Shown here piece after piece: positions 2,930 to 23,083 of a DNA stretch of 23,147 nt (positions are counted from its first letter, which is position 1; each line of letters starts with the position of its first letter). A model generated the notes under the pieces. The model saw only the letters and a list, made by a program, of their open reading frames with translations. It was not told the DNA's origin and made no database searches. The stretch is from a virus. Where the stretch lies: the IMG/VR virus record IMGVR_UViG_3300046313_000234, positions 1 through 23,147 of that record; one strand, 5' to 3'. A program made the translations under genes and the position numbers.

Positions 2930-2932
2930 AAC

Positions 2933-5043: not shown

Positions 5044-5078
5044 GATGTATCCTTTTCAATAGGTTTGATTATGCCGAA

Positions 5079-9853: not shown

Positions 9854-9865
9854 TTTCGTTACTCC

Positions 9866-9915
9866 AAAAAAAACCGCCTGCAACCCCGTGGAATCAGCAC
9901 GGAACTACAGGCGGT
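9866..9915 (-). terminator. Terminator-like hairpin II in the antirepressor leader
   Basis: On the minus strand: ACCGCCTG (9915-9908), a short region that can pair by wobble, CCGTG (9902-9898), 7-nt loop CTGATTC (9897-9891), CACGG, then CAGGCGGT (9880-9873) and a run of U to 9866. The Shine-Dalgarno GGAG of the antirepressor follows at once. This is a textbook intrinsic terminator placed so that termination removes the gene's translation start. Its loop is the exact complement of the loop at 9946-9952. Confidence 0.75.
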
Positions 9916-9921
9916 AGGCCT

Positions 9922-9972
9922 TGAGAGCTTTGACTTTTTAACCCTCTGATTCAGGGAATGTCGAAACTCTCA
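9922..9972 (-). ncRNA. Hairpin I of the antirepressor leader, possible c4-like RNA
   Basis: On the minus strand, a 13-base outer stem (9972-9960 with 9934-9922, one mismatch and one wobble) encloses a CCCT/AGGG stem with 7-nt loop GAATCAG (9952-9946). The loop is fully complementary to the hairpin II loop. Phages P1 and P7 use c4 antisense RNA, made from the leader of the antirepressor operon, to silence the antirepressor; position and loop pairing here fit that idea. Identity with the c4 family is not shown. Confidence 0.5.
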
Positions 9973-9981
9973 GCGCAAATT

Positions 9982-10005
9982 CTACCCCAAATTTCTTAGG
10001 GGTAG
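9982..10005 (-). other. Hairpin just after the dUTPase stop
   Basis: CTACCCC and GGGGTAG form a perfect 7-bp stem with a 10-nt loop, 9 bases after the dUTPase stop codon. On the minus transcript only AATTTGCG follows, so termination would be weak; it may act as an RNA-processing or stability end. On the plus strand T6 follows at 10011-10016, but no plus gene leads into it. Confidence 0.45.
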
Positions 10006-10014
10006 TGCTATTTT

Positions 10015-10668
10015 TTACAATAAAGGCGACTGCGTTCCTGTACTGCCAAAGCCTTTATCGCCTCGCTCGGTTTCCTTTAGCTCGCTAGTTTCCTCGATAG
10101 CCCATTGGTCAACAGGTATCAGCATGGCTTGGGCTATTCGGTCGCCTGGGCGTACAAAAAACGGAACGCGCCCCATGTCGTGATCAACCTCATCGCTTAC
10201 CAATTGCACCATTACCTCGCCAACGTAGTCAGAATCCACCACGCCTACACAATTTGACAATCTGACCTGATGCTTGAAGCCATGCCCTGAACGGCTATAA
10301 ACTAGCATTACGTAGCCTTCTGGCACTTCAAACGATAACCCAGTCCCGCAGGTAACAGGGAAGCCCTGCTCGACGTTTGAGCCTATTTGAGTCATGCCTG
10401 CTACCGTTGCAGCGTGCAAATCAAAGCAAGCTGCCCCTGCGGTTTGGTACTTTGGAAGAATGGCGTTGTCGTGAACGCGCTTTACTTTCAGTGTCTTTGT
10501 CATAGTGTCTCCATTGGTGAATAAATCTGTCTGTGGATTGAAAACGGCCTTAGATTGGCTGATAACTGCGGTTGGAAACAATTTTTTGTGGCAGACCGGG
10601 CCTATTGGACGGCAAGCAACAAAATACATTGCTTTGTCCAATGGCCTGGAACACATTACGCATCGCAC
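10015..10668 (-). CDS. dut: dUTPase with Cys-rich N-terminal extension
   Basis: Trimeric dUTPase hydrolyses dUTP to dUMP, keeping uracil out of phage DNA. All five motifs are present: AGAACFDL (77-84), YSRSGHG (124-130), GVVDSDYVGE (142-151), RIAQAML (177-183) and RGDKGFGSTGT (202-212). The enzyme proper starts at Met56 (ATG 10503), which has its own GGAG 6 bases upstream. The frame is open further up to a GTG at 10668 with AAGG 7 bases before it. That adds CVMC, C19 and C26-H27, a probable zinc knuckle typical of separate tiny phage proteins. Both forms, fused and short, may be made. Confidence 0.85.
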   Translation of the reverse strand: MRCVMCSRPLDKAMYFVACRPIGPVCHKKLFPTAVISQSKAVFNPQTDLFTNGDTMTKTLKVKRVHDNAILPKYQTAGAACFDLHAATVAGMTQIGSNVEQGFPVTCGTGLSFEVPEGYVMLVYSRSGHGFKHQVRLSNCVGVVDSDYVGEVMVQLVSDEVDHDMGRVPFFVRPGDRIAQAMLIPVDQWAIEETSELKETERGDKGFGSTGTQSPLL

Positions 10669-12266
10669 TTGGTCGCCTTAAGAATCACCACATTCACTCC
10701 AGTGCCTGCAAACTCGTTTTCGTAGATTGTTGACCATTCGCACTCCACGCCGTCAAAGTCCTTGCCCTTGTTGGACGCTGGCAGGATGGATACAACCACG
10801 CCACCTGGCTTTAATAGGCCTATGGCGTACTCAGTATGCAATCGTGCCCTGCCGCCTTCAAAAGGTGGGTTTAAGATGATCCTGTCGTACCTACCCGCCG
10901 TAATAGCCCACGGCAAAAAGTCAGCGTTTACCACGTTAACCCCCTTGGCCTTCAAGATTGTGCAATGTAGTTCGGATATTTCCACGCACGTAGTTCTGTC
11001 CTGTGGCATGAATTGAGCAATGCCGCCCTGCCCTGCACTGGGTTCTAAGCATTGATCATCGTCCCCAATGTATGCCCACTCAACTGCAATACGTGCCAGT
11101 TTCTCAGGGGTCGCGTAATATTGGTGCGATTGTTTGTCAGGAATACACCCAGAGGCCACAATATCATCCAGCACTTCGGTGGGGTCGTAGTCAAATTGAA
11201 AGTATGGATTAGACCCGCGCTCCATCAATACCGCGCCGATGGATTCCAGTACCTTGGTTGCTTCCTCTACACCTCCAACGTGCCTACCGCTGTCAAACTT
11301 CCGAGCGTTCTCAATATTGACGTACTTTGTAGGGTAGCCGTTTCCAACGATGCGTGTGGCGATTCTCATACCACCCAGCAGGGCCAGCACGTTAAACGGT
11401 AGCGGTCTTCCGATAAGTTCAAACTCTTTTATCTGCTTTTTAGGCTTTTGGCGAAACTCTGCCGGGATAGCTCGCGGGTACATACTGGCAAGAATCGCAT
11501 TCAATCTCCACGACATATCCGGGTGAACCTCCATGTGGGCGGTTCCTTTGCGGTGCAACTTGATCTTCATAGACCCGCCGTCCAACGTCACCCACTGGCC
11601 CCACCTACGCCTAAGAATCGGGATTAGGTCAGACGTTGCATGCCAGCCTGGCTCTTTTCGCCCCATGAATTTAGCCACCACACACCGCAGGTCATTGATC
11701 AATCCGCAGGTGCTAGTGTCCGCAGAGTCATAAGCATTTAGAACACGGGCAATAATCATCCGCTTGCCGAAACCTTCGGGGGCGTTGGTAACGTGGTCGC
11801 CCGACAATCCCCTGAATATTCCGTCTACCCGCTCAGCCAAAAACTGGGCGCGCATGTTCATCATTTCCGTGATAGTCGGGCGCACCGTTTCCTCTACAAA
11901 GTCGGGCGCTGTCATTTCTCGGATTGTCTTATGCCATTCGTCCCGTCGCTTTTGCGGCATCATGTCCAGCACGTCAGTAAGTGCTAGGGTCTTTGACCAA
12001 TAGGCAGAATTAAGGCTCGCTACTGCTCCCGATACCTCAAACAGCTTTTTTACTGAAGGCCGAAAGTGTCCGCTATCGTCACTGTTTCCAGATAGAAAAT
12101 ATTCAAGCGCGGACTCATTCTCCACGTCGATCATGTTGCCAATAGCTTCAATCCGTTTTCGCATGGATTGGTATTGACCCAATAGCTCGGTGAAGATGTC
12201 CGCACTTACTGGCGCAAAGAAGTGAGCGGTTTCGTCTACTAGCTCGGTGTGGGCTATTTCGCTCAC
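10656..12266 (-). CDS. DUF4942-type protein with adenine DNA methylase domain
   Basis: The 536-residue product starts at GTG 12266, overlapping the upstream stop (GTGA). The N-terminal two thirds match the DUF4942 style (for example RRRWGQWVTLDGGSMKIKLHRKG and AHMEVHPDMSWRLNAILASMYP). The C-terminal third is a Rossmann methylase: LEPSAGQGG (about 407-415) is motif I for S-adenosylmethionine, and LNPPF (465-469) is the catalytic NPPF of N6-adenine methylases. The likely role is modification of phage DNA against host restriction. No cognate nuclease is seen, so it is an orphan methylase. Confidence 0.82.
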   Translation of the reverse strand: MSEIAHTELVDETAHFFAPVSADIFTELLGQYQSMRKRIEAIGNMIDVENESALEYFLSGNSDDSGHFRPSVKKLFEVSGAVASLNSAYWSKTLALTDVLDMMPQKRRDEWHKTIREMTAPDFVEETVRPTITEMMNMRAQFLAERVDGIFRGLSGDHVTNAPEGFGKRMIIARVLNAYDSADTSTCGLINDLRCVVAKFMGRKEPGWHATSDLIPILRRRWGQWVTLDGGSMKIKLHRKGTAHMEVHPDMSWRLNAILASMYPRAIPAEFRQKPKKQIKEFELIGRPLPFNVLALLGGMRIATRIVGNGYPTKYVNIENARKFDSGRHVGGVEEATKVLESIGAVLMERGSNPYFQFDYDPTEVLDDIVASGCIPDKQSHQYYATPEKLARIAVEWAYIGDDDQCLEPSAGQGGIAQFMPQDRTTCVEISELHCTILKAKGVNVVNADFLPWAITAGRYDRIILNPPFEGGRARLHTEYAIGLLKPGGVVVSILPASNKGKDFDGVECEWSTIYENEFAGTGVNVVILKATKCDA

Positions 12267-12439
12267 CTTGGTGCCACCTTCGATTTAGTCTGATTTGGTG
12301 TGCATGAATGCTGCTCTGGGTTTACCCTATTTGCATCTAGCAACATCTGGCGCGTGCTTTTGATTCGGCCAAACTTGTCGGCAATGATCGATGGCTGGCC
12401 TTTCCAATCGAATGGGCTTTTTGGTTTACTTGGTTTCAT
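12263..12439 (-). CDS. Small unknown basic protein (58 aa)
   Basis: This short gene overlaps its neighbours on both sides: 14 bases with the upstream 132-residue gene and GTGA with the methylase start. The product MKPSKPKSPFDWKGQPSIIA, followed by DKFGRIKSTRQMLLDANRVNPEQ, is basic and probably partly disordered. It may assist the methylase, but only the operon position suggests that. Confidence 0.5.
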   Translation of the reverse strand: MKPSKPKSPFDWKGQPSIIADKFGRIKSTRQMLLDANRVNPEQHSCTPNQTKSKVAPR

Positions 12440-12824
12440 TTTTCTTTTTCCGTGTAGTTTTACGCAAGTCCACGTGCCTGCAAGACAACGCGCCTTTTAA
12501 GTAATCAGGGTCTCCATATGCGCCCATGATGTTGATATGCTGAACCATATCTTTGCCAAATTGCTCGGTGTCAAACTTGAATGCCTTATCCCGGCAAAAT
12601 CCTCCAACGGTTTCTAGCAAGGCTTTCACGGCACACAATGCCTCGCGCAGCTCCTCAACTTCGCGCTCGCGTGCGGATTCATCATCAGAAAGCTCTGCCA
12701 GCGCTTCATCTTGGCTTTGAATGTGCAGCATGGCCCATTGCAGCAATCCACCCAAGTCGGTTCCACGGTTAGCCAGTCCGTTCTTTTCCAGCTCTTGCAC
12801 TAGCTGTGATGTGTTGGCTAGCAT
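12426..12824 (-). CDS. Coiled-coil protein of unknown function (132 aa)
   Basis: The product has a helical core rich in Glu, Ala and Leu (DEALAELSDDESAREREVEE, then LREALCAVKALLETVGGFC), predicted to form a coiled coil, and a very basic C-terminus (RKTTRKKKNETK). The start overlaps the upstream gene by 7 bases. Similar proteins occur in phage early regions without known function. Confidence 0.6.
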   Translation of the reverse strand: MLANTSQLVQELEKNGLANRGTDLGGLLQWAMLHIQSQDEALAELSDDESAREREVEELREALCAVKALLETVGGFCRDKAFKFDTEQFGKDMVQHINIMGAYGDPDYLKGALSCRHVDLRKTTRKKKNETK

Positions 12825-13159
12825 AAGTACCCCACGCTGCGTAGGTGCGAATGGTCAGAGTTTGGTCGCTGCGGTTGATTGAACGGGTCGCACATGCCTA
12901 CCTTGTATGGTTCGTATGCTTTTTTGGCTTCTTTGGTAGCGGCTATGCCGTCTTGGTCAAGATGGCTGCGGCCTAACTTTGTGATGTGGAAAGCGCCTTC
13001 AGCTTCAAACAATAGGCCAGCTTCCACCAAGATGGCTAGGCGAGCAGGCATGTTTCCAATGCTGACGCTTACATCCTTACCATGCGTAAAGTAATCAGCA
13101 CGCCGAGGGGCTTGGGCGATGATGGTTAGCAGCTTCTTTTGTGCGGGTGTGATTTTCAT
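12818..13159 (-). CDS. Winged-helix-like phage protein (113 aa)
   Basis: The first 65 residues (TPAQKKLLTIIAQAPRRADYF, IGNMPARLAILVEAGLLF, GAFHITKLGRSHL) have the spacing of a winged helix with an MarR-like wing. The C-terminal third is polar and probably flexible. AAGGAAACAAA precedes the ATG, and the start overlaps the previous stop (ATGA). A DNA-binding role is inferred from the fold pattern only. Confidence 0.6.
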   Translation of the reverse strand: MKITPAQKKLLTIIAQAPRRADYFTHGKDVSVSIGNMPARLAILVEAGLLFEAEGAFHITKLGRSHLDQDGIAATKEAKKAYEPYKVGMCDPFNQPQRPNSDHSHLRSVGYLC

Positions 13160-13698
13160 TTTGTTTCCTTGAGTCCATTTAATTCGGCTTGCAGTTTTTC
13201 AATCTTCTTTTGCTTCAAGATACCATCAACAGAACCTTTGGTCGTTACATACCAATCGTTGATCTTATCTAGTCCAGCTTCTAGCTGCTCTGGTAAGAAG
13301 TAAAACGAGCTATTCAAATCATCGTAGTAATAGCATGCAATATCGGTAGCAAGTTTGTGGATAGATGTATTTGTCTCTGTATATACATCGTCATCAAACA
13401 TATTGATGCAATTTATATAGACGTTTACCAATCCTTGAGGCATTGGAAGTTTCCTTGGGTGGTTACATGATTGATTTGTTTGCCAGTTAATACCCCAAGC
13501 AAAGTACGTTTCTTTGTACCGATCGGCTAGTCTGAAATAATCATCACCCTCAACTTTGTTCAAAAGAATTGATTCGCTGAACAACGGAATCAGTGCAGCA
13601 AAGTCAGTGCAGTTCTTGTATTCCTTAGCTTTATTCATAAGTTCTGTTTGTAGTTCTGGGTGAATGCCGGTTACGTCGATTGTGTCGGTAGTTTTCAT
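13156..13698 (-). CDS. Unknown protein (180 aa)
   Basis: No family is recognised. The product is soluble and rich in Tyr, Asn and Asp (FDDDVYTETNTSIHKLATDI, CYYYDDLNSSFYFLPEQLEAG), with a basic helical C-terminus (KQKKIEKLQAELNGLKETK). Its base composition is more AT-rich than its neighbours, which hints at a separately acquired gene. AAGGAAACTC precedes the ATG. It follows the Cro-like gene in the leftward operon. Confidence 0.6.
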   Translation of the reverse strand: MKTTDTIDVTGIHPELQTELMNKAKEYKNCTDFAALIPLFSESILLNKVEGDDYFRLADRYKETYFAWGINWQTNQSCNHPRKLPMPQGLVNVYINCINMFDDDVYTETNTSIHKLATDIACYYYDDLNSSFYFLPEQLEAGLDKINDWYVTTKGSVDGILKQKKIEKLQAELNGLKETK

Positions 13699-13732
13699 GA
13701 GTTTCCTTTGTTGCTATTAAATGTGTAGCTGA

Positions 13733-13936
13733 TTATGCTTGCTGGTCGGGCGCTGGGAGCTTTTTGGGCTTAAGTTTCAATCTAGCCGCTGCACCACGAA
13801 CACGGTCTTCAAGTGCCTGGGGCAAGATTTCAGGCCACACGTACACAGATTGGGGTACGGAATAGCCTAGCGCCTTAGCGGCTAAATTTGGCGTACCTCC
13901 TAATAACTCTATCGCTTCATTCTTGGTCATCGTCAT
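13733..13936 (-). CDS. Cro-like helix-turn-helix regulator (67 aa)
   Basis: The first gene of the leftward operon. MTKNEAIELLGGTPNLAAKALGYSVPQSVYVW reads as the helix-turn-helix of YdaS/Cro-type regulators, followed by a Trp-Pro turn and EDRVRGAAARLKLKPKK. Two ATGs lie two codons apart; the first (13936) has AAAGGA 7 bases before it and is used. It sits beside the divergent control region with operator sites, as Cro does, and probably binds there. Confidence 0.75.
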   Translation of the reverse strand: MTMTKNEAIELLGGTPNLAAKALGYSVPQSVYVWPEILPQALEDRVRGAAARLKLKPKKLPAPDQQA

Positions 13937-13968
13937 GTGTAAGTCCTTTTAAGTTGTTTGACCCATGT

Positions 13969-13998
13969 AATGTAACACAGTTTACATCGCCATTGCCA
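13969..13998 (-). promoter_or_regulatory. Leftward early promoter with operator (site D)
   Basis: On the minus strand, -10 TACATT (13974-13969) with an 18-base spacer and a poor -35 TGGCAA (13998-13993). The palindrome TGTAA-ACTGTG-TTACA (13986-13971) has its right arm in the -10 box. The poor -35 suggests dependence on an activator or weak basal use. It leads to the Cro-like gene. Confidence 0.5.
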
Positions 13999-14005
13999 TG
14001 ACCTT

Positions 14006-14021
14006 GTTAAAACTATTTTAC
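14006..14021. promoter_or_regulatory. Degenerate operator copy in the divergent region
   Basis: GTTAAAACTATTTTAC reads on the minus strand as GTAAAATAG followed by TTTTAAC, sharing the GTAAAATAG core of sites C and E. It lies between the two divergent promoters, where a third repressor site would be expected. Confidence 0.35.
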
Positions 14022-14038
14022 TTTTTTTTCAAATTCTT

Positions 14039-14068
14039 TTGTATCTATGTTGAAAAGTAAGTTACACT
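14039..14068 (+). promoter_or_regulatory. Rightward early promoter
   Basis: -35 TTGTAT (14039-14044), an 18-base spacer and -10 TACACT (14063-14068). The -10 overlaps a shortened arm pair GTAAGTTACA (14057-14066). It leads to the 137-residue gene at 14099. Confidence 0.45.
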
Positions 14069-14098
14069 ACATGCACACCAACCAACCAAAAGGAAACT

Positions 14099-14512
14099 AT
14101 GAAAGCACAAACAATACTCAACCGTGCGGCACACGCAGCATCAAAGAACCCCGACGATCTATCGCGCATGGCCTTCCACATTGGAGCGCTTGAAGCTGAA
14201 GTGACCATGCTGTGCCATGCTATCAACGAATACACGCCAATCGCCGAAGGTGTAGAAACCACATTCAAGCACGCAGGCTGTGACCTTGTAGTCTTTTACG
14301 AAGCCGACGATGAGGGAGACATTGACATCACGGGAGTGTTTGCCAATGGTATGGATGTAACCGATCTGCTAATGGATACCTCAGCAATGGATGCGGTAAT
14401 GGAGCATTGCACAGACCATGCATACATCCAACGCAAGCAAGCTGCATATGACTTGGCGGAGCAGCAAATGGAAAACAGGCGCGATGCTGATTTGGAAAGC
14501 GGTGCAGCATGA
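14099..14512 (+). CDS. Unknown acidic protein, first gene of rightward operon (137 aa)
   Basis: The product begins with a helical, basic segment (MKAQTILNRAAHAASKNPDD) and continues with acidic sequence (FYEADDEGDIDITGVFANGM) and a C-terminal helix. No repressor-type helix-turn-helix is visible although it occupies the place of the right-hand immunity gene. AAAAGGAAACT precedes the ATG. It is followed at once by a small helix-turn-helix gene (ATGA). Function unknown. Confidence 0.6.
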   Translation: MKAQTILNRAAHAASKNPDDLSRMAFHIGALEAEVTMLCHAINEYTPIAEGVETTFKHAGCDLVVFYEADDEGDIDITGVFANGMDVTDLLMDTSAMDAVMEHCTDHAYIQRKQAAYDLAEQQMENRRDADLESGAA

Positions 14513-14727
14513 CAATCGCCGAATACTTCGCCAGCCTGCCTCGTGGCTCTATCAAAGGTGTAGCAGCTAAGTTGGGCTACTCAGTTAGCCACCTTTACAA
14601 AGTAGTCATTGGAAAAAATAATCCGTCTTTTTTCATGGCTAACGCTTTTGTTCAATTCTCAAACGGAAAAATTGATATGCACACTATAAACATAGGCGAA
14701 AGGACGAAACATCATGCGAACAAGTAA
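14509..14727 (+). CDS. Small helix-turn-helix regulator (72 aa)
   Basis: GSIKGVAAKLGYSVSHLYKVVIGKN (about 13-37) fits a helix-turn-helix of the Cro/YdaS kind, and the rest is short and basic. The ATG overlaps the upstream stop (ATGA). It may be the partner of the Cro-like protein across the divergent region, or a second Cro-type factor. It is too short for a CI repressor with a dimerisation or peptidase domain. Confidence 0.65.
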   Translation: MTIAEYFASLPRGSIKGVAAKLGYSVSHLYKVVIGKNNPSFFMANAFVQFSNGKIDMHTINIGERTKHHANK

Positions 14728-14893
14728 CACAAACAGCGACAGCGGATATTCTGGCGCATTCTCTTGGTGGCGACAAACTAGCCACCACGCACTTGGGTAC
14801 ACGGTATGCAATCACACTACGTTTTTTGAGGGCACTGGTGTATTTGATGCCGTAACCGATGATTTTGGAAACTTAGTAAAGGCTGGAAAATGA
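14714..14893 (+). CDS. Small unknown protein (59 aa)
   Basis: The start has AAAGGA 9 bases upstream and overlaps the end of the HTH gene by 14 bases; the stop overlaps the next start (ATGA). The product has a Ser/Asn-rich N-terminus, FSWWRQTSHHALGYTVCNH and VFDAVTDDFGNLV. It looks like a compact beta-rich domain. No family is recognised. Confidence 0.55.
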   Translation: MRTSNTNSDSGYSGAFSWWRQTSHHALGYTVCNHTTFFEGTGVFDAVTDDFGNLVKAGK

Positions 14894-15348
14894 AACTGAC
14901 TAAATGCGACAAGTCACTAATACTGCGCGAAATTAAGTATGACTTACCCAAAATTGATGACACGGAGGCCATTCAAGTTGCACTTGAAAAATCGATGAGC
15001 CAGTTGTGTCGTAAGTTGTACAAGTTGGACCCAGTGGCGCTGCGCACAGAGTACGCAACATCATATGACTTCTTACAAGATGGCGGCCATGAGTATTACG
15101 TTGGTGATGCAGACTTTGCTGCTGTGACCAAACCTTTCAAGGACAAGAAGAAAGCAAGGGAGGCAACCCTCAACAAGGTGAGCGCCGCACTTGACTCCTG
15201 CACCACCCTGAAGCAGCTTCAAGAGCGTCTGCCAGAATTTGTAAAGTATTTTCATGCAGAAGTCACAAAAAGTACAAACTCACTGGTTGTGCAGAGCCCC
15301 GTAAATGAATTGAGGGCCATTGGATGGCCAGTAGGATCAAAGAAATGA
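14890..15348 (+). CDS. Putative Nmad5-like nucleotide-modification-associated protein
   Basis: The N-terminus (MKLTKCDKSLILREIKYDLPKIDD) and the overall plan (helical start, then LCRKLYKLDPVALRTEYATS, a Lys-rich middle and a helical end) resemble the phage Nmad5 group, named for association with nucleotide modification. The 152-residue length fits. This match is by memory of the family pattern and is tentative. Two genes downstream lie a TGT/DpdA-like enzyme and a 7-deazapurine-type transporter, a context that supports a modification role. The biochemical activity of the family is not known to me. Confidence 0.5.
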   Translation: MKLTKCDKSLILREIKYDLPKIDDTEAIQVALEKSMSQLCRKLYKLDPVALRTEYATSYDFLQDGGHEYYVGDADFAAVTKPFKDKKKAREATLNKVSAALDSCTTLKQLQERLPEFVKYFHAEVTKSTNSLVVQSPVNELRAIGWPVGSKK

Positions 15349-15545
15349 CACACACAAAAACTAACGGATGTGGCGGAAATTGCAACCAAGGCAGACAATG
15401 CGACTGCTGTCCAAACGCATACCGCAAGAACTTCGATCACTTTGGTAATCCAATCGAACAAGAGCCGCCATTCTTGCTAACCGACTTGATCATCATTGCC
15501 ATAGCTGTAATTGGTACGGCTGTATTGTTGGCGGGGGTAGTGTGA
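15345..15545 (+). CDS. Cys-rich small membrane protein (66 aa)
   Basis: The ATG at 15345 overlaps the previous stop (ATGA); an upstream in-frame ATG at 15324 would overlap far more. The N-terminus has CGGNCNQGRQCDCCPNA, five Cys in 11 residues, followed by a linker and a C-terminal membrane span (LLTDLIIIAIAVIGTAVLLA). It matches in layout the protein at 5079-5294 in the packaging arm. It may sit in the membrane with a metal-binding or redox head in the cytoplasm. Function unknown. Confidence 0.65.
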   Translation: MTHTKTNGCGGNCNQGRQCDCCPNAYRKNFDHFGNPIEQEPPFLLTDLIIIAIAVIGTAVLLAGVV

Positions 15546-16279
15546 TTCACTATCACGGATCACCAATAACACCCGCGTCAGCTGCTGCCAAAGTTCTTGC
15601 AGGTCGCCATTCGTTCGTGTCATTTGCAAATCCCGAACAGTTGCCAATAGCGATTGAAGTGTGCCAGTCGTTTGCATTGGATAACGGCGCATTCTCTGCC
15701 TGGATGAGTGGAAACCCAGTAACGGATTGGACACCTTTTTATCAGTGGGTGGCTAAGTACATGAACACACCGAACTTTGATTTTTTCGTTATCCCTGACG
15801 TAATCGATGGTGACGAAAAAGCAAACGATTCACTTCTTAGGGACTGCCCACTTCCTAAACACATGGCTGCACCTGTTTGGCACATGCACGAAACGACTTC
15901 ACGCCTTCAATGGATGGCTAGAAATTACCCACGGGTTTGCATTGGGTCGTCCGGTGAGTTTTCAATGGTCGGTACACCTAAGTGGTGGGAGAGAATCAAT
16001 GTTGCATTGGCTTCTATCGTTGACGCAAATGGCCAGCCGATCTGCAAACTGCATGGGCTTCGTATGCTTAACCCCGAAGTATTCACACGCATTCCTTTCG
16101 CGTCAGCTGATAGCACGATGGTAGGAAGAAACGTGGGGATGGATGGCGCATGGAAAGGAACATATATGCCGCCAGACAAGGACTGGAGGGCGCAAGTTCT
16201 TGCTGCCCGTATCGAATCACACAACTCAGCAAATTGCTGGACAAATCAACCACAACAGGAGTCACTATGCCTTTTTTAA
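15542..16279 (+). CDS. TGT/DpdA-like TIM-barrel, putative 7-deazaguanine transglycosylase
   Basis: The GTG start overlaps the upstream stop (GTGA). Over 245 residues the motif order parallels queuine/preQ1 tRNA-guanine transglycosylases. LDNGAF (46-51) corresponds to TGT DSGGF with the substrate Asp. IPDVIDGDE (84-92) corresponds to the second Asp loop, IGSSGEF (134-140) to GGLAVGE, and SADSTMVGR (188-196) to FDCVxPTR with the nucleophilic Asp190. HGLRM is at 171-175. No CxCxxC zinc site is seen. DpdA proteins of phages use this fold to swap guanine for 7-deazaguanine bases in DNA. The next gene is a matching transporter. Substrate is inferred. Confidence 0.65.
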   Translation: MIHYHGSPITPASAAAKVLAGRHSFVSFANPEQLPIAIEVCQSFALDNGAFSAWMSGNPVTDWTPFYQWVAKYMNTPNFDFFVIPDVIDGDEKANDSLLRDCPLPKHMAAPVWHMHETTSRLQWMARNYPRVCIGSSGEFSMVGTPKWWERINVALASIVDANGQPICKLHGLRMLNPEVFTRIPFASADSTMVGRNVGMDGAWKGTYMPPDKDWRAQVLAARIESHNSANCWTNQPQQESLCLF

Positions 16280-16743
16280 TCGCCATCTACGCAGTTGCAA
16301 TCATCTCTGCAAATTTGCTTGTATCCAAATTCGGCCCAAGCATTACACCTATCAATGCCTTCTTCTTGATTGGACTTGACCTAGCTCTACGAAATTATCT
16401 GGCGCTGAAGATGAGCAAGTTTCAGATGGCTGCAATGATCGTTGGAACTGGGGTAATAAGTTACGCAGTCAATCCAGCAACGGGGATGATTGCCATTGCA
16501 TCCGGCGTTGCGTTCACTCTTGCAGCGCTTGCAGATTGGGCCACGTTTAACACCGTGTCAGGCCAATGGATGAAGCGAAACCTTGCAGGAAATAGTGCAG
16601 GGGCATTGGTTGATTCCATTATCTTCCCAACTATTGCTTTTGGAAGTCTGATGCCTGTAATCGTGTTGGCTCAGTTTGTAGCAAAAGTTGCAGGTGGTAC
16701 ATTCTTTGGCTACATCATTCAGAAACGGCTGGTGAAAGCATGA
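16267..16743 (+). CDS. VUT-family transporter (queuosine-precursor type, YhhQ-like)
   Basis: The start at ATG 16267 has AGGAG 5 bases upstream. It overlaps the enzyme gene by 13 bases. The 158-residue product is almost all membrane segments with family hallmarks: ANLLVSKFGP, TPINAFFLIGLDLALRNYL, ISYAVNPATGMIAIASGVAF, LAALADWATF, and VDSIIFPTIAFG with VLAQFVAKVAGG. VUT proteins such as YhhQ import preQ0/preQ1 or related bases. It is shorter than E. coli YhhQ (221) but the core is complete. With the upstream enzyme it suggests salvage of a modified base for phage DNA or tRNA. Confidence 0.82.
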   Translation: MPFLIAIYAVAIISANLLVSKFGPSITPINAFFLIGLDLALRNYLALKMSKFQMAAMIVGTGVISYAVNPATGMIAIASGVAFTLAALADWATFNTVSGQWMKRNLAGNSAGALVDSIIFPTIAFGSLMPVIVLAQFVAKVAGGTFFGYIIQKRLVKA

Positions 16744-17087
16744 CCCACACAGTAGATTCACTTATGGCACTGGCTGATGCGTATGCCGCGCTCAAGCGCC
16801 ACGACTACTTAACAGGCGAAGGATCGTCGTTGTGGTATCGAGAAAACTTGCGCGCAGCACTGACGGAAGCGCTTAAAAATAAGCAGGATTTATACACATC
16901 GCAAGAACGTGTACAAAATTCGCCTGAAAGTGTGCATATCGCGCAGCCAGTATGGGGGCCTTTAAGTGATGAGCAGATTCAAGAAATCTATATCAGCGAA
17001 TACAACAAAGGACACCACGGGCGTGATTTTGAGACTGCCTTTGCCAGGGCAATCGAGCATGCCCACAATATCGGAGGTGACAAGTGA
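16740..17087 (+). CDS. Unknown phage protein (115 aa)
   Basis: The ATG overlaps the transporter stop (ATGA). The N-terminal half is helical (DSLMALADAYAALKRHDYLT; ENLRAALTEALKNK). The C-terminal half has PLSDEQIQEIYISEYN and FETAFARAIEHAHN, a short domain often found at the end of phage early proteins of Ea22 type. No enzyme motif. Function unknown. Confidence 0.6.
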   Translation: MTHTVDSLMALADAYAALKRHDYLTGEGSSLWYRENLRAALTEALKNKQDLYTSQERVQNSPESVHIAQPVWGPLSDEQIQEIYISEYNKGHHGRDFETAFARAIEHAHNIGGDK

Positions 17088-17185
17088 CTACGTTTTTCAG
17101 GCTGTGCGCCATGTATCACCGATTCGGCCACACACCCTACCGCTCCATTGTGCGAGCATGGGAGACGATGCGGAGGATGACATGA
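17084..17185 (+). CDS. Tiny basic protein (33 aa)
   Basis: The GTG start overlaps the upstream stop (GTGA) and has a strong GGAGG 6 bases before it. The stop overlaps the next ATG (ATGA). The product MTTFFRLCAMYHRFGHTPYR continues as SIVRAWETMRRM, basic and probably helical. The two junctions and the ribosome site support a real gene despite its size. No function is known. Confidence 0.55.
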   Translation: MTTFFRLCAMYHRFGHTPYRSIVRAWETMRRMT

Positions 17186-17334
17186 ACCAATCCGACCTAT
17201 TCGCTATTGGCATGGAATCAGATACGGCCTACCGCCTGATGCAAGAGCTGTGCAAGCTGCTAGATGTTCAATACCCACCAGACCCAAACGATAGAACGCA
17301 AATAAATGTAAAAGAATTGAAAAAAGCAGAGTAA
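17182..17334 (+). CDS. Small unknown protein (50 aa)
   Basis: The ATG at 17182 has GGAGG 5 bases upstream and an ATGA junction with the tiny gene before it. The product begins MNQSDLFAIGMESDTAYRLM, continues QELCKLLDVQYPPDP and ends basic. A longer reading from further upstream in the same frame exists but runs inside the previous genes. Function not recognised. Confidence 0.55.
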   Translation: MNQSDLFAIGMESDTAYRLMQELCKLLDVQYPPDPNDRTQINVKELKKAE

Positions 17335-17347
17335 AATCGATTACAAT
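17317..17347 (+). promoter_or_regulatory. Promoter with operator in spacer (site F)
   Basis: -35 TTGAAA (17317-17322), a 19-base spacer and -10 TACAAT (17342-17347). The operator GTAAAATCGATTACA (17331-17345) differs from sites C and E at one base. It drives the Sak4-like and SSB-like genes. Confidence 0.55.
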
Positions 17348-17373
17348 AAAACTTCACTAAACAAGGAAACGAT

Positions 17374-18027
17374 ATGTCAATTGCAGCACTAATACTAGGT
17401 TCATCGGGTAGTGGAAAATCTACCAGCCTTAGAAATTTAGACCCAACCAAGACACTGCTCATCCAGTGCATCAAAAAGCCTCTGCCATTCAAATCAGCTG
17501 GGTGGAAAAAGCGGGTAAGCATGCAAGACGATGGCAACGTCATCCAAACCAGCGACCCGGTGATGATTGAAAAAATCATGCGTAAGTCACCACACGACAT
17601 TGTTGTGATTGATGATTACCAGGCGGTCTTGATTAACGAGATTTTAGGACGTAGCAGCGAACACGGTTACACCAAATACACCGATGTGGCTAAAGGTGCA
17701 TGGAACATCTTTAACGCTGCGGGTGACTTGGCAGACCATCGCCGTGTTTACATCATGGCCCACACTAGAACGGACGAATTCGGCAACATTCGCATGCAGA
17801 CTGTTGGCAAGTTGGTTGACTCGACCATCGTGCCAGAGGGTTACTTTACGATCGTACTGCGCACCGAAGTGACCAACGGAAATTACAAGTTTTTAACCCA
17901 GACCAATGGGCAAGATTGCTCGAAAAGTCCAATGGGTCTATTCAAAGACCTGCACATTGATAACGACTTAGCGCAAGTTGATCAAGACATTCAAGATTTT
18001 TATTCAATTCCCCAAACCACTGCTTAA
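17374..18027 (+). CDS. RecA-like phage ATPase, Sak4-type annealing or recombination protein
   Basis: The 217-residue protein is a RecA-fold core: Walker A GSSGSGKST (9-17), Walker B IVVIDD (76-81), and RVYIMAHTRTDEFGNI (124-139) as the sensor strand. Sak4-type proteins are single-domain RecA-like phage recombinases or annealing proteins that depend on SSB; the next gene encodes an SSB-like protein with an acidic tail. AAGGAAACGAT precedes the ATG and promoter F lies just upstream. It could also be an AAA-type ATPase of another role, but the pairing favours recombination. Confidence 0.78.
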   Translation: MSIAALILGSSGSGKSTSLRNLDPTKTLLIQCIKKPLPFKSAGWKKRVSMQDDGNVIQTSDPVMIEKIMRKSPHDIVVIDDYQAVLINEILGRSSEHGYTKYTDVAKGAWNIFNAAGDLADHRRVYIMAHTRTDEFGNIRMQTVGKLVDSTIVPEGYFTIVLRTEVTNGNYKFLTQTNGQDCSKSPMGLFKDLHIDNDLAQVDQDIQDFYSIPQTTA

Positions 18028-18047
18028 CTAAAAAGGAAAAAGCAACC

Positions 18048-18668
18048 ATGTATAACCTCGACCCAAACGCAGCGCGAAAAGCTGACACGCAAGGCAACCA
18101 GATTAAAGAGCTTGGCAAATACCTCGGAGCTATCACACAAGCCGAAGACATCACAGCAAAGACTGGCACAAAAGGGTTAAACCTGCACTTCACCAGCGAC
18201 GCAGGCCAAAAAACGAAGGTTTCTATCTACGTTGAAAAAGCCGACGGAACAAAGCTCAGCGGCTTCTATCTGCTACAAGCCTTAATGACCTGCTTACAGC
18301 TTCGCAGCTTGTCGCCCAAACAAGGCACTGTGACTGTTTACGACTACGATCAAAAGAAAGACGTGCAGAAACAAGCAAGCATTTTCCCAGAGCTATGCAA
18401 GCCCATTGGCCTATTGCTTGGCACTGAGGACTATCAGAAACAAGATGGCAGCGTCAGCAGCCGCATGGTGTTGCGCGGCGTGTTTCAGGCTAGCACAGAG
18501 CTGACAGCGAGCGAGATTCTTGACCGAAAGACTGTGCCGGAAGCATTGCCCAAAATGGTGCAGGCTCTAAAACACAACCCTTTGAAGGCTGCACCAATGG
18601 CACAGCGTACGAATGCATCTAACGCTGCCACTCAGCCCTTTGGCGAAGATGAAGATCTTCCATTCTGA
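18048..18668 (+). CDS. SSB-like phage protein with acidic C-terminal tail
   Basis: The 206-residue product has a beta-rich middle (KGLNLHFTSDAGQKTKVSIY, then DYQKQDGSVSSRMVLRGVF), a Gln/Ala-rich linker, and ends in GEDEDLPF. That end is very close to the DDDIPF tip by which SSB recruits partners. It follows the Sak4-like gene by 20 bases, consistent with a recombinase/SSB pair. A classic OB fold cannot be proven by eye. AAAGGAAAAAGCAACC precedes the ATG. Confidence 0.72.
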   Translation: MYNLDPNAARKADTQGNQIKELGKYLGAITQAEDITAKTGTKGLNLHFTSDAGQKTKVSIYVEKADGTKLSGFYLLQALMTCLQLRSLSPKQGTVTVYDYDQKKDVQKQASIFPELCKPIGLLLGTEDYQKQDGSVSSRMVLRGVFQASTELTASEILDRKTVPEALPKMVQALKHNPLKAAPMAQRTNASNAATQPFGEDEDLPF

Positions 18669-18814
18669 TGTTGGCCAAATGGACTGAAATTCTCCCGCTG
18701 TTTGTAGTGCGCTGGATTGCCTTGCGCCATTGCGAACGGTTGATTGTTTTTCGCGAAGAGCATGAGCGAATCATGGCCGTCGCTAGGCCTGACGTTTACA
18801 TCAAGATTAAGTAA
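18668..18814 (+). CDS. Small unknown protein (48 aa)
   Basis: The start shares one base with the SSB-like stop (TGATG), so it is probably coupled. The product (MLAKWTEILPLFVVRWIALR start) has an amphipathic or membrane-near N-terminal helix, then a charged helix (ERLIVFREEHERIMAVARPD) and a basic end. Function unknown. Confidence 0.5.
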   Translation: MLAKWTEILPLFVVRWIALRHCERLIVFREEHERIMAVARPDVYIKIK

Positions 18815-18818
18815 GTTT

Positions 18819-18870
18819 TTGGCACTGGTAGCCTCTGGGGATTCTCGGGGGAGCGCACTACCAGTGCCAA
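18819..18870 (+). other. Long perfect hairpin in the gap after the recombination genes
   Basis: TTGGCACTGGTAG (18819-18831) and CTACCAGTGCCAA (18858-18870) form a perfect 13-bp stem around a 26-nt GC-rich loop. No U-tract follows on either strand, so it is not an ordinary intrinsic terminator. It may mark a processed RNA end, a small RNA, or a DNA structure used in replication. It begins 5 bases after the stop of the 48-residue gene. Confidence 0.6.
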
Positions 18871-18873
18871 TCT

Positions 18874-18944
18874 AACTTGGCAAACAAGTTGGCAAATAGC
18901 CCAGTTTTTCCAATGTAGAAGCTGCAAAAATAAGTTGGCAATAG
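18874..18944. repeat. TTGGCAA repeats and a second small hairpin
   Basis: TTGGCAA occurs at 18877, 18889 and 18935, on top of the TTGGCA arms of the neighbouring 13-bp hairpin. AAGTTGGCAAATAG (18886-18899) and AAGTTGGCAATAG (18932-18944) are near-copies 46 bases apart. AACTTG-GCAAA-CAAGTT (18874-18890) is a 6-bp hairpin. The set looks like a protein-binding array or an origin-type element; there is no gene in this gap. Confidence 0.45.
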
Positions 18945-18966
18945 ACGCTAATTTATTTATAAATAT

Positions 18967-18997
18967 TTTACAAAACGCTAGTAAAATAGATTACACT
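18967..18997 (+). promoter_or_regulatory. Promoter with operator in spacer (site E)
   Basis: -35 TTTACA (18967-18972), a 19-base spacer and -10 TACACT (18992-18997). The operator GTAAAATAGATTACA (18981-18995) equals that at site C. It drives the gene at 19021, which has AAGGAAACCA before its ATG. Confidence 0.55.
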
Positions 18998-19020
18998 ATA
19001 CACAAACAAAAAGGAAACCA

Positions 19021-19242
19021 ATGACCAAGCTACCAAAACCAGCTTGCCCAAAATCAGGGACAAGACAACCAAGTAATCTTTACACCGAAGAGCAAATGCT
19101 CCAGTTCCGGCGCGATGCGTTGGAAGATGCTGTGAGTATTTGCTTTGAGGCCGAAGACTCAGATGATGAATATGTATCAACACGGCACACTATTGCTCGC
19201 GCAATCAGCAAACTAAAGGAAACCAATGTCCTCACTTTTTAA
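19021..19242 (+). CDS. Unknown small protein (73 aa)
   Basis: The product has a Lys/Pro-rich start (MTKLPKPACPKSGTRQPSN) and then a helical acidic part (QMLQFRRDALEDAVSICFEA; DSDDEYVSTRHTIARAISKL). It resembles short phage proteins of the Ea-type whose role is not known. Clear Shine-Dalgarno, promoter E upstream, 17-base overlap with Gp157 downstream. Confidence 0.6.
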   Translation: MTKLPKPACPKSGTRQPSNLYTEEQMLQFRRDALEDAVSICFEAEDSDDEYVSTRHTIARAISKLKETNVLTF

Positions 19243-19729
19243 TTTGTCAAATCAGTACCTAGAACTGGCGCACACACTCTCAGAGCTAGATTTAGATGCT
19301 ACAACTGTAGCTGACACGCTAGAAGCAAGCAATTTGCCTGAAGATATCGCTACAAAGGCTGCAAACATCGAATACGTTGCCCGTAGTGCAGAGTCTAACC
19401 ATGCAGCAATCGACGCAGAGATATCCCGTTTGCAGGCTCTCAAAGCGCATCGCACCAAGATTGCTGCAGGTTTGCGGGAATACATCCTAAGCAACATGCA
19501 ACGAATGAACATTGAGCGCATTGAATGTCCGTTGTTCACAATGAAGATACAAAAGAACCCCGCAAGCGTAGATGTGTATGACCCACTAAGCATACCAGCC
19601 GAATACATGGTGACACCAGAGCCACCGCCTGCCCGTGTGGATAAGAAAGCACTGGCGACCGCTATGAAAGCAGGCACTGAGATACCAGGCGCACGTATGG
19701 TGCAAGGCGTGAGGCTCGCGATTAAATGA
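19226..19729 (+). CDS. Gp157 family protein
   Basis: At 167 residues it matches the siphovirus Gp157 group. Hallmarks are SLFNLSNQYLEL near the start, a long helical coiled-coil centre (NIEYVARSAESNHAAIDAEI; LQALKAHRTKIAAGLREYIL) and a conserved C-terminal part with PLFTMKIQKNPASVDVYD and IPAEYMVTPEPPPARVDKKA. The family is found in early operons near recombination genes and was linked to phage resistance in Streptococcus thermophilus. The molecular function is not established. AAGGAAACCA precedes the ATG. Confidence 0.85.
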   Translation: MSSLFNLSNQYLELAHTLSELDLDATTVADTLEASNLPEDIATKAANIEYVARSAESNHAAIDAEISRLQALKAHRTKIAAGLREYILSNMQRMNIERIECPLFTMKIQKNPASVDVYDPLSIPAEYMVTPEPPPARVDKKALATAMKAGTEIPGARMVQGVRLAIK

Positions 19730-20025
19730 AAGTCACCAAATTCGACAAAATGCGCCAGCTACTTCGTGAAGCTGATTGGACGTATCAGGAACTGGCAGAC
19801 GAGGTAGATTGTCAAAAAGCCAGCGCAATAAAGCTAGTACGCGAAGAAATTGCCGCAGGTAATGTGAAATTTGTTGGCTACAAGGCTGATAGCAACCTTT
19901 ACACATGGGTAGGCGATGATGATCTGATAACCATGGCAAAACGTGCTGCTGATTACTTGGAACAGCATGCAAAAGACCAATTAGGCCAGTCGATTGCCAA
20001 GCACCTGCGGAGGATGACGACGTGA
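19726..20025 (+). CDS. Small winged-helix-like protein (99 aa)
   Basis: MRQLLREADWTYQELADEVDCQKASAIKLVREEIAAGN followed by VKFVGYKADSNLYTWVG reads as a winged helix. The C-terminal part is helical and basic (QLGQSIAKHLRRMTT). The ATG overlaps the Gp157 stop (ATGA). It may be a DNA-binding early protein. No specific family is named. Confidence 0.62.
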   Translation: MKVTKFDKMRQLLREADWTYQELADEVDCQKASAIKLVREEIAAGNVKFVGYKADSNLYTWVGDDDLITMAKRAADYLEQHAKDQLGQSIAKHLRRMTT

Positions 20026-20234
20026 AAAAAACTAGCACATACGCACGCAAGATGCGCCGAACCGACCAAACCTACAATGCCGCGGCTTGGTTGAACACCT
20101 TGACCAAGTGCCGCGCCTATTCTGACGAACTGATACCTGGGGCGATTGCAAAAGTGCCAAGCTTTGAAGCTATCCGCGCAATGATTATCGAAACCCGCAT
20201 TGGCAGAGATAGCGAACGGCCTCGACTTGTTTGA
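20022..20234 (+). CDS. Small early protein, N-terminal piece of a probably frameshifted gene
   Basis: The GTG start overlaps the previous stop (GTGA). The first 58 residues (MKKTSTYARKMRRTDQTYNA, AAWLNTLTKCRAYSDELIPG) look like the start of a phage family of KKTSxYARK proteins. After the CCC at 20194-20196 the frame turns into IGRDSERPRLV and stops, while the +1 frame goes on with a fitting helical C-terminus to 20334. Dropping one C joins them to about 103 residues. This may be a mutation, a sequence error or a programmed shift. Function unknown. Confidence 0.55.
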   Translation: MKKTSTYARKMRRTDQTYNAAAWLNTLTKCRAYSDELIPGAIAKVPSFEAIRAMIIETRIGRDSERPRLV

Positions 20235-20334
20235 GGAAGTGGCGACCAATAGCAGCCCTATGCAGATGAACAATGCCATGCTTGAGAGAAATAGGCTAGT
20301 GGAACAATTAAAAAGAAATTACACTACAATGTAA
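20200..20334 (+). pseudogene. C-terminal piece in +1 frame of the frameshifted gene
   Basis: This frame reads LAEIANGLDLFEEVATNSSP, then MQMNNAMLERNRLVEQLKR, to the stop at 20334. It has no Shine-Dalgarno and no ATG at its proper start (TTG 20200), but the sequence is helical and matches the style of the C-terminus (YEEIxxxSSPxQM) that follows KKTSxYARK N-termini in related phage proteins. Its last 16 bases coincide with the palindrome at 20319-20334. An independent TTG-started gene is the alternative. Confidence 0.45.
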
Positions 20335-20349
20335 AATTTGTTGTATAAT
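20319..20349 (+). promoter_or_regulatory. Promoter region with outward palindrome (site G)
   Basis: -10 TATAAT is at 20344-20349; the -35 is unclear (ACACTA at 17 bases or TTACAC at 19). The palindrome TTACA-CTACAA-TGTAA (20319-20334) has the half-sites of the operator family in the opposite order, as in 5641-5658. It leads to the gene at 20377 with AAGGAAACAAAC before its ATG. Confidence 0.45.
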
Positions 20350-20376
20350 CGCATTGCAAAAACAAAGGAAACAAAC

Positions 20377-20997
20377 ATGCACAAAGAATTGATAGCACGA
20401 CTGCGCTCTGGTGCAGGCAATGCGCGTGAGCGAGTTGTGTACAGCGGATTAGCCCCTCTTGCCGATGAAGCCGCCGACGCTATCGAAGAGCTGCAAGCAG
20501 ATCACGAGCTGATGCAGACCCAACTGCAAAACTCGATTACACGCAGACAAGAGCAAATTGCATCAGCCGATTTTGCAGTGGCTTCATTGAAAGCAGAGCG
20601 TGACGAATACCAGCAAGCCGCCGACAAGATGGCAATGGAACACAAGGTAGAGCGCGACACCCTACGCCAGCAACTAGCTGAAGCGCAGGCGCTGATTGAA
20701 GCAAGCCAGAAGCAGACACCGTGTGCATTCGCTATGCGGAGAGATGATGGTTTGGTGCTTGATGTTATCTGCCCTGATGAACACGAAAGCCATGAAGGTG
20801 AATACACCCTGCCTTTGTACTCTACCCCAGTCATTGATGACTATGTGCAACGGGATGCTTGGCGTTATCGTGAACTGATCTTTGCAGTTGCGCGAAAGTT
20901 CCAAAACGAGAGCCGCCATGAAACAGCACTACGGTATATCCAAAGAATGGAAGCACCAAGCACCACATCTAGCGCAGCTATGAAAGTCGCAGCATGA
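20377..20997 (+). CDS. Ea22-like coiled-coil early protein (206 aa)
   Basis: The ATG at 20377 is chosen for its AAGGAAAC ribosome site; an in-frame ATG 39 bases up lies across the -10 box. The N-terminus HKELIARLRSGAGNARERVV with LADEAADAIEEL is the common module of phage Ead/Ea22-like proteins. A long coiled coil follows (about 35-110, LKAERDEYQQAADKMAMEHK), and the C-terminal domain has LDVICPDEHESHEGEYTLPL. Such proteins are early and non-essential in lambda-like phages; function is not established. Confidence 0.72.
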   Translation: MHKELIARLRSGAGNARERVVYSGLAPLADEAADAIEELQADHELMQTQLQNSITRRQEQIASADFAVASLKAERDEYQQAADKMAMEHKVERDTLRQQLAEAQALIEASQKQTPCAFAMRRDDGLVLDVICPDEHESHEGEYTLPLYSTPVIDDYVQRDAWRYRELIFAVARKFQNESRHETALRYIQRMEAPSTTSSAAMKVAA

Positions 20998-21191
20998 GTT
21001 ACACCGCAACACCAACAGTATTCGAGATACACGACGACGAAACACGAGAGTTTTCCGCTCGTGTGAGCATGTTTGACGAAGGTGGTGCAACGATTGAGCT
21101 AAAAAGCTGCTTTGATCGAACAACTTTTGATGCAATCGTACCAAGCTTGCAATATGCTTTATCGGCAATGAAATTGGATGGCGATCAGTGA
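20994..21191 (+). CDS. Unknown small protein (65 aa)
   Basis: The ATG overlaps the upstream stop (ATGA). The product (MSYTATPTVFEIHDDETREF, FDEGGATIELKSCFDRTTFD, LQYALSAMKLDGDQ) is a compact beta-rich protein with no motif. The chained overlaps on both sides support it. Function unknown. Confidence 0.58.
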   Translation: MSYTATPTVFEIHDDETREFSARVSMFDEGGATIELKSCFDRTTFDAIVPSLQYALSAMKLDGDQ

Positions 21192-21400
21192 GCACGCCAA
21201 CCGCAAAACAATGGGAGCGCCGCGCACTTACAGCAGAGCAAGAGCTTGAAACAATCCGCGCCATTCGCAAACAGGACAGCGACCGTGAATTGACAATGGC
21301 GAGAGAAAATGCAGCACTTCGTGTGGCAATGCGCGAGATTCAAGAGGCTAGCAACTGGGCGTATGGCATGATTGCTGATACTTTGAAAGGTTCCAAATGA
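21188..21400 (+). CDS. Small coiled-coil protein (70 aa)
   Basis: The GTG start overlaps the upstream stop (GTGA). The product is almost wholly helical (WERRALTAEQELETIRAIRK; ELTMARENAALRVAMREIQE), predicted coiled coil, ending in ASNWAYGMIADTLKGSK. Such short helical proteins are frequent at the end of phage early operons. Function unknown. Confidence 0.58.
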   Translation: MSTPTAKQWERRALTAEQELETIRAIRKQDSDRELTMARENAALRVAMREIQEASNWAYGMIADTLKGSK

Positions 21401-21543
21401 CAAAAGAACAAATCCTAGAAGTGCTAAAACTTCTTTCGGCATTGGAGGCATGGAGCTTTGCAGAAAAGCACAACTTGCCGGACTATCTTTTTGACCGACT
21501 AGACAAGAGCATCCAAGTGCTAACTGCTAAGGTTCTTGAATAA
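21397..21543 (+). CDS. Small helical protein, last gene of rightward operon (48 aa)
   Basis: The ATG overlaps the upstream stop (ATGA). The product MTKEQILEVLKLLSALEAWS, followed by FAEKHNLPDYLFDRLDKSIQ, is all-helical and soluble. The stop is 8 bases before the terminator stem. The overlap and placement in the operon support a real gene. Function unknown. Confidence 0.6.
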   Translation: MTKEQILEVLKLLSALEAWSFAEKHNLPDYLFDRLDKSIQVLTAKVLE

Positions 21544-21550
21544 TTCCACA

Positions 21551-21593
21551 GCCCCCATCAAAAGCACTTCGGTGCAATTGCTTGGGGGTTTTT
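21551..21593 (+). terminator. Intrinsic terminator of the rightward operon
   Basis: CCCCC (21552-21556) pairs with GGGGG (21584-21588), followed by T5. An inner GCAC-TTCG-GTGC tetraloop hairpin (21564-21575) caps it. It separates the rightward early operon from the convergent lysis genes. There is no T-run on the minus side, so it acts mainly on the plus strand. Confidence 0.82.
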
Positions 21594-21597
21594 CGTA

Positions 21598-22098
21598 TCA
21601 CTTCAGCGATCTTGCAATGGTATCGTCCTTGTTTCTTGACGAACTACTGGAACCAAACCAATAACTGACACAGGCCATCCACGCGGTGCCCAAGCTGCCC
21701 AACATGACCAATAGAGGTTCGCTACTCTTGTACGATTCAGACATCATGAAGGCTAATATCCCAAAGAACCCCACCGTGATCAAGTAAGTTAGTACAGCGG
21801 GGACTGTTGACCCCGTAGACACATGCATTTCACGCGCGCTCTTCCTATCATCTAAGGCCAATTGTTCGCGCTTAATCTCGTTATCATCCATCCACTTTTT
21901 GAACTCGATCTCTGCCAACTTTACTTGCGCTACTTGGTCTGGTGTGAGTTTGTCCGCAGTCATAGCCTCGCTAACGGCTTTAACCGTCTTTTCAGGAACG
22001 CCTAGCTTATCGGCAATGAAAGACGCTGCAATGCCACCGAATGGGCCTAAAAAAGCAGTTCCTAAGAGTGGTGCAAGTTTTGCCAGTAGTTCATTCAT
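21598..22098 (-). CDS. Holin, 3TM type
   Basis: The 166-residue protein has an N-terminal hydrophobic segment (APLLGTAFLGPFGGIAASFI), a charged middle (about 65-90, KKWMDDNEIKREQLALDDRK) and two C-terminal membrane segments (AVLTYLITVGFFGILAFMM, LLVMLGSLGTAWMACVSYWF), ending in WFGSSSSSRNKD. The YWFGSS ending is typical of the three-span holins related to the gene-transfer-agent holin family. It would form the membrane lesions that release the endolysin encoded next door. ATGA overlap with the endolysin gene. Confidence 0.85.
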   Translation of the reverse strand: MNELLAKLAPLLGTAFLGPFGGIAASFIADKLGVPEKTVKAVSEAMTADKLTPDQVAQVKLAEIEFKKWMDDNEIKREQLALDDRKSAREMHVSTGSTVPAVLTYLITVGFFGILAFMMSESYKSSEPLLVMLGSLGTAWMACVSYWFGSSSSSRNKDDTIARSLK

Positions 22099-22535: not shown

Positions 22536-22813
22536 TTGAAGCCATGCGCTTTCAGGTAATCAATGAACATAAGCCCAAGTCCAACAAGAGCCGACCACAC
22601 CAAACCAGCGAGCGACTTCTCAATGATGGCTTTGCGTATGGATGCACGGTCTGTCTGCTCTTTTATCGCAAGCCGTACCCATTGCTGTTCCTGCTCTGTC
22701 AGGCACGTGGGCTGATAGTGAACCTTGAGAGCCGTGATTATCGAATTGACTAAATGCTCATGTGTACCGCTGCGTCGCTCTGTGCCGCCGTAGGTTTGAT
22801 GATCGTCTGTCAT
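22532..22813 (-). CDS. Small membrane protein of the lysis cassette (93 aa)
   Basis: The product has a polar N-terminus (TDDHQTYGGTERRSGTHEH), a helical TEQEQQWVRLAIKEQTDRAS segment, and one C-terminal membrane span (LAGLVWSALVGLGLMFIDYL) with a short basic end. Such proteins sit beside endolysin genes in many phages; a role as a holin accessory or pinholin-like partner is possible but unproven. ATGA overlaps on both sides. Confidence 0.65.
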   Translation of the reverse strand: MTDDHQTYGGTERRSGTHEHLVNSIITALKVHYQPTCLTEQEQQWVRLAIKEQTDRASIRKAIIEKSLAGLVWSALVGLGLMFIDYLKAHGFK

Positions 22814-23073: not shown

Positions 23074-23083
23074 GATTTATCCT

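Follow-up and report, generated by a model that had tools for sequence, protein, structure and literature searches.

Two overlapping genes in an early region of this phage, one related to the tRNA-guanine transglycosylases (TGT) and to DpdA and the other of the VUT/YhhQ membrane protein type, raise the question of whether a phage can import a 7-deazaguanine base and place it in its own DNA without encoding the pathway that makes the base. The window, by which we mean the whole stretch of DNA analysed, is an IMG/VR viral record of 23,147 bases with 48 % G+C. Its gene content includes a portal, a terminase, an antirepressor, a DnaC-like loader, NinG and a dUTPase, and the phage looks temperate. 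The rightward early region spans the dpdA-VUT site and reaches a Sak4-like annealing protein and an SSB. A 536 aa DNA methyltransferase (PHROG 6263; 10656-12266, - strand) is encoded in the leftward operon, where it adjoins the dUTPase and is a second DNA-modification gene.

When the entire window was compared to phage records using megablast, no matches were found. A twin contig, G001 (IMGVR_UViG_3300048690_000048; 37,914 bases), is 100 % identical to positions 12719-23147 of the window, and the other end of G001 extends the window leftward at 99.7 % identity (window 8498-12693). As the window spans both ends of G001, this contig is near-complete and circularly permuted, with a genome size near 37.9 kb. 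Positions 1-5320 of the window are only 91.6 % identical to G001 and, hence, the two contigs represent two related phages. The features of the locus are as follows.

14890-15348, + strand: Nmad5-like gene, 152 aa (open reading frame; Pfam Nmad5, PF18757)
15324-15545: Cys-rich gene, 73 aa (open reading frame)
15542-16279, + strand: short dpdA gene, 245 aa, with a GTG start that overlaps the stop of the preceding gene (PHROG 887, 9g-type profile match, predicted fold)
15680-15682, + strand: codon for the invariant Asp47, in LDNGAF, equivalent to LDSGAF of 9g DpdA (homologue alignment, hhalign)
16052-16054, + strand: codon for the invariant His171, in KLHGLR, equivalent to His196 of 9g DpdA and not found in DpdA2 (alignment; PMC6884629)
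16109-16111, + strand: codon for the invariant Asp190, candidate nucleophile, in SADST, equivalent to SCDSS of 9g DpdA (alignment, hhalign)
16257-16261, + strand: AGGAG ribosome-binding site for the VUT gene, within dpdA
16267-16743, + strand: gene for a VUT/YhhQ-type membrane protein, 158 aa, short and QPTR-like (Vut_1, PHROG 4899, model)

The initial annotation had placed the 245 aa protein with TGT and DpdA on the basis of its motifs, and the relationship was confirmed. The motifs LDNGAF, IPDVIDGDE, IGSSGEF and SADST are present, far above chance, the protein matches PHROG 887 (E 1.7e-67), and a short DpdA profile matches the 9g-type DpdA in hhalign (E 3.8e-17). Matches to Pfam, including the Pfam TGT family (PF01702), and to NCBIfam were not found. 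The protein retrieved 107 phage records in a tblastn search, each sharing <60 % identity with it, and the DpdA of Pantoea phage MED16 shares 42 % identity over 199 aa. All 30 homologues, at identities down to 36 %, retain Asp47, Asp86, His114, His171 and Asp190, and the conservation expected of Asp47 and Asp190 was thus borne out. When a DpdA profile was built from 30 diverse homologues, it matched the DpdAs of slur01 (5e-19), yong3 (4e-17) and 9g (3.6e-19), and hhalign paired Asp47, His114, His171 and Asp190 with the LDSGAF, PCFH, KVHG and SCDSS motifs of the 9g type. DpdA2 does not include the residue corresponding to His196 of 9g DpdA (PMC6884629) and, since His171 is the equivalent of this residue, the 245 aa protein is a short DpdA and not a DpdA2.

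The DpdA of slur01, which is 69 % identical to that of 9g, itself matches PHROG 887 (E 8.2e-96) and, judged by sequence, the experimentally grounded DpdAs belong to this PHROG, the family of the 245 aa protein. CAjan is a Seuratvirus, as is slur01. Deletion of dpdA in CAjan abolishes dPreQ0 (PMC6884629). With the DpdAs of 9g and CAjan the window protein has in common PHROG 887, the catalytic residues including His196, the barrel fold and the lack of a zinc motif, but at 245 aa it is smaller than these proteins (~306-317 aa), its C-terminal part being shorter. The genomes of 9g and CAjan also encode their own preQ0 pathway, which the window phage lacks.

An AlphaFold2 model of the 245 aa protein is a confident barrel (pLDDT 88). 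In a fold search of the PDB, generic or TrpA-type barrels rank first and the arcTGT 1j2b was 12th (E 1.8e-3), which by itself is ambiguous. A fold search of BFVD, in which the named matches were phage queuine tRNA-ribosyltransferases (TM 0.5-0.7, E down to 1e-10), settled the match for the predicted fold, and structure prediction therefore agrees with the assignment made from the motifs. The protein is not a canonical TGT (PF01702), as the Pfam TGT match is absent and the CxCxxC zinc motif is missing in 30 of 30 homologues. Though the want of a zinc site had suggested a divergent class, this suggestion was not upheld because the motif is also missing from the 9g-type phage DpdAs (none of seven, compared to nine of ten TGTs) and its absence is the normal state in phages. 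Comparison with cellular TGT using hhalign was non-significant, but the 9g-type DpdA fails in the same way and this comparison is without power. Sequence searches of the PDB with both the DpdA and the VUT alignments yielded nothing useful.

The next gene had been described as encoding a VUT/YhhQ-type protein and as overlapping dpdA by 13 bases, and both points stand. The frame at its longest begins at 16150, but the most likely start is the ATG at 16267, which is preceded by AGGAG and agrees with the starts of homologues, and with this start the overlap is exactly 13 bases. The gene scores above the cut-off for Pfam Vut_1 (PF02592; 31.6 bits, cut-off 27.2), all 30 homologues examined match Vut_1 at E <= 0.1, and the protein matches PHROG 4899 (E 9.9e-34). 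The model is all-helical (pLDDT 92) and the top fold match in the PDB is the ECF S-component 5edl (probability 0.98, TMq 0.62), with a weak E of 0.42. The protein fails the TIGR00697 queuosine-precursor transporter equivalog, scoring 10.7 bits against a cut-off of 50.95, and this counts against a role in salvage. It shares with E. coli YhhQ/QPTR (COG1738, VUT family TC 2.A.88) a membrane-helix architecture and a short core that surrounds two Asp residues, but YhhQ is 221 aa long. The Lg3-type VUT and E. coli YhhQ, when used as queries in viral contigs, detected no relatives by the pattern method.

In order to see how often the two genes occur together, IMG/VR was searched with the VUT protein alone, giving 80 loci that are partly redundant. 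A dpdA gene immediately adjoins vut on the same strand in 79 of them, with dpdA first in 77 and vut first in two, and after reduction to <88 % identity the pair was found in 29 of 30 representatives. In the loci with dpdA first, the genes overlap by 1-10 bases or are separated by gaps of up to ~240. Nine checked isolates from several unrelated genera (Obolenskvirus, Peatvirus, Drexlerviridae and others) carry the pair, with dpdA first in AB3P2 and vut first in PEAT2, Tbat1_6, Opt-719, ECO111 5-P, Phc, LHE71, Lg3 and RCIP0319. The host recorded for LHE71 is E. coli K-12. The record of PEAT2 already annotates both genes side by side, but no description of the pair as a recurrent unit was found in the literature searched, the coverage of which was incomplete. 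Mapped onto a tree of 94 DpdAs, the paired or solo state changes at least nine times (gains or losses) and, hence, the association has been re-formed or lost repeatedly. Comparison of the DpdA and VUT distances gave r 0.46 (0 of 5000 permutations). This very strong linkage supports the salvage logic of the initial annotation.

The converse search gave a different picture. VUT was not detected in 18 of 36 viral loci found with DpdA, and was present in only six of 80 DpdA loci in bacterial genomes, which counts against the salvage reading. VUTs of the PHROG 4899 type without dpdA are rare, the clear exception being one lineage of mEp-type coliphages with 27 near-identical loci, and this also counts against salvage; VUT may have another role there. 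In the mEp-type coliphages (L129/L130, which are mEp010 and mEp021, and L236-L262), the VUT gene overlaps a gene for a PHROG 757 DNA methyltransferase. That DpdA is often found without VUT but VUT seldom without DpdA is what would be expected if VUT were an accessory that supplies DpdA.

The Nmad5-like and Cys-rich genes upstream had been proposed as possible parts of the same cassette, but among the compared loci no others than the window and G001 carry them. Their place in the cassette is therefore not supported, and they were not counted as components. The 152 aa protein scores 40.7 bits against Nmad5 (PF18757; cut-off 27) and covers only positions 135-206 of the 206 in the model. Its sole phage hit was in BcepC6B, where no dpdA or VUT gene is annotated within 4 kb. 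Mutation of Nmad5 in a Dhillonvirus allows phage escape from the Tmn defence (PMC11846954), and the C-terminal fragment encoded in the window may be relevant to the sensing of defence, independently of dpdA.

The absence of genes for preQ0 synthesis, which the initial annotation could judge only in the window, extends to the rest of the genome as represented by the near-complete twin and to other contigs and isolates with the pair. No QueC, PTPS, FolE, radical SAM or QueF was detected in the window or G001, none of 20 pair-bearing viral contigs includes QueC, a QueD-type PTPS or FolE, and radical-SAM (QueE-type) and QueF genes were absent from all 28 pair-bearing contigs and isolates. With dpdA present and FolE, QueD, QueE and QueC absent, the phages represented by the window and G001 fall into the DpdA-only class that Hutinet 2019 defines as group 3, in which low dADG was found in Salmonella phage 7-11 and none in Orion (PMC6884629). 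That study suggested that the base comes from the host or by uptake, found that phage YhhQ did not correlate with any group, and was unable to predict modification status for the largest group of DpdA phages, which is without preQ0 genes (PMC6884629). Phage MED16 likewise has dpdA but no preQ0 genes, and dADG was measured at ~0.13 % of G (PMC8306585). These DpdA-only phages resemble the window, but in MED16 the gene after dpdA is annotated as hypothetical and not as VUT, whereas in the window it is an overlapping VUT gene.

A Vut_1 family gene has been seen in a phage 7-deazaguanine context before, namely ORF41 of Pantoea phage Vid5, which is similar to bacterial VUT proteins, and in the clusters of Seuratvirus and Nonagvirus, and salvage of preQ0/preQ1 by phages was already proposed in 2018 by the authors who described Vid5. 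In those phages VUT accompanies a preQ0 synthesis cluster, whereas in the window it is paired with dpdA alone. In the Queuovirinae (slur01, yong3), the same VUT family lies inside a queE-queC-vut-queD-folE-dpdA cluster, with dpdA ~2 kb away. Some bacterial dpd islands also have dpdA near a preQ0 transporter, and YhhQ accompanies dpdA-C in ~9 % of them (PMC11888242). However, the islands are chromosomal modification-restriction systems that include dpdB/C and dpdD-K, while the phage cassette consists of two genes.

The prophage DpdAs nearest to that of the window are mostly from Burkholderiales, and a strong QueC match was found in 22 of 23 host genomes of DpdA prophages. Hence, most hosts can provide preQ0, to which VUT would add import, and import is not obviously needed, a point against salvage. 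This raises the possibility that DpdA uses preQ0 made by the host, with VUT an accessory that boosts the supply in poor hosts or that has drifted to another purine-like ligand. The 74 of 80 bacterial-genome loci that lack VUT, the retention of VUT without dpdA in the mEp phages, and the dADG found in MED16 and 7-11 despite the lack of preQ0 genes (PMC8306585, PMC6884629) are all in keeping with it. We nevertheless consider it unlikely, as an unrelated VUT is hard to reconcile with linkage in 79 of 80 loci, independent gene orders and repeated re-association, and as several of the Burkholderiales hosts tested lack a Vut_1 gene, so that the phage copy would add an ability. Rhizobium subbaraonis (G037, L212), the one host without a strong QueC match, carries its own TGT and additional Vut_1 genes alongside the dpdA-vut pair. 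This would make it a host that relies on salvage alone, and the one for which the pair is likely to be most important. In Variovorax and Pararoseomonas (G021:C23:514698-517530 and G031:C26:9437-13057), weak TGT-family hits lie <=3 kb from a second copy of QueC and are possibly dpd-type islands.

Membership of the TGT superfamily, and the database label queuine tRNA-ribosyltransferase, would also fit an enzyme that targets tRNA of the host or phage, or another RNA, rather than DNA and in this way increases or diverts queuosine-type modification while the phage infects. We regard this as very improbable, given that the DpdAs of the 9g type, which belong to PHROG 887 as well, place the base in DNA, as seen from the CAjan deletion (PMC6884629), that the closest tested relative, MED16, has dADG in its DNA, that the hosts tested already possess a full-length TGT, and that the zinc site of TGT is absent. 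A tRNA with a GUN anticodon, which would point to tRNA as the target, was not found near the pair in the loci scanned, nor was a preQ1 riboswitch. It is scarcely credible that VUT is a superinfection or membrane-takeover factor and that its pairing with dpdA merely reflects the place both occupy among the early accessory (moron) genes of temperate phages. Although the two genes lie in the variable early region, among further small genes of accessory type, the other neighbours recur far less (126 of the compared loci have the dpdA frame and 109 the vut frame, and a replication protein, which is the next real gene family, recurs in 40), the family match and fold of VUT are those of transporters, and the Queuovirinae place the same VUT family within the preQ0 cluster.

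The family, catalytic-residue conservation, predicted folds, translational overlap, recurrent pairing and absence of preQ0 genes established here probably reflect a cassette of two genes by which the phage salvages a 7-deazaguanine base to modify its DNA, for which we infer the direction of import, the substrate, the DNA target and the benefit. In such a cassette, VUT in the inner membrane would import preQ0, or else preQ1 or a closely related derivative, and the short DpdA would exchange guanine in the phage DNA for the imported base by the TGT mechanism, with Asp190 as the nucleophile and Asp47 as the general acid/base. The expected outcome would be low-level marks of the dPreQ0 or dADG type that allow the DNA to evade restriction and, without preQ0 synthesis of its own, the phage would depend on base made by the host or present in the environment. 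DpdA-only phages and phage YhhQ have been published already, and what is new here is the prediction of a conserved two-gene salvage unit.

The linkage offers the DpdA-only phages a concrete and testable source of base and gives PHROG 4899, which is listed as of unknown function, a likely role. If the salvage reading is correct, the camouflage of phage DNA would hinge on scavenged metabolites, and this would affect restriction assays performed in defined media. More tentatively, the pair may be a widespread minimal import-and-insert module, in which the transporter would give the infected or lysogenic cell an uptake of preQ0, preQ1 or another precursor that the host may lack and the short DpdA would insert the base into DNA. 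Were this so, modification would depend on neighbours and the environment, and the short enzyme might take a base other than preQ0.
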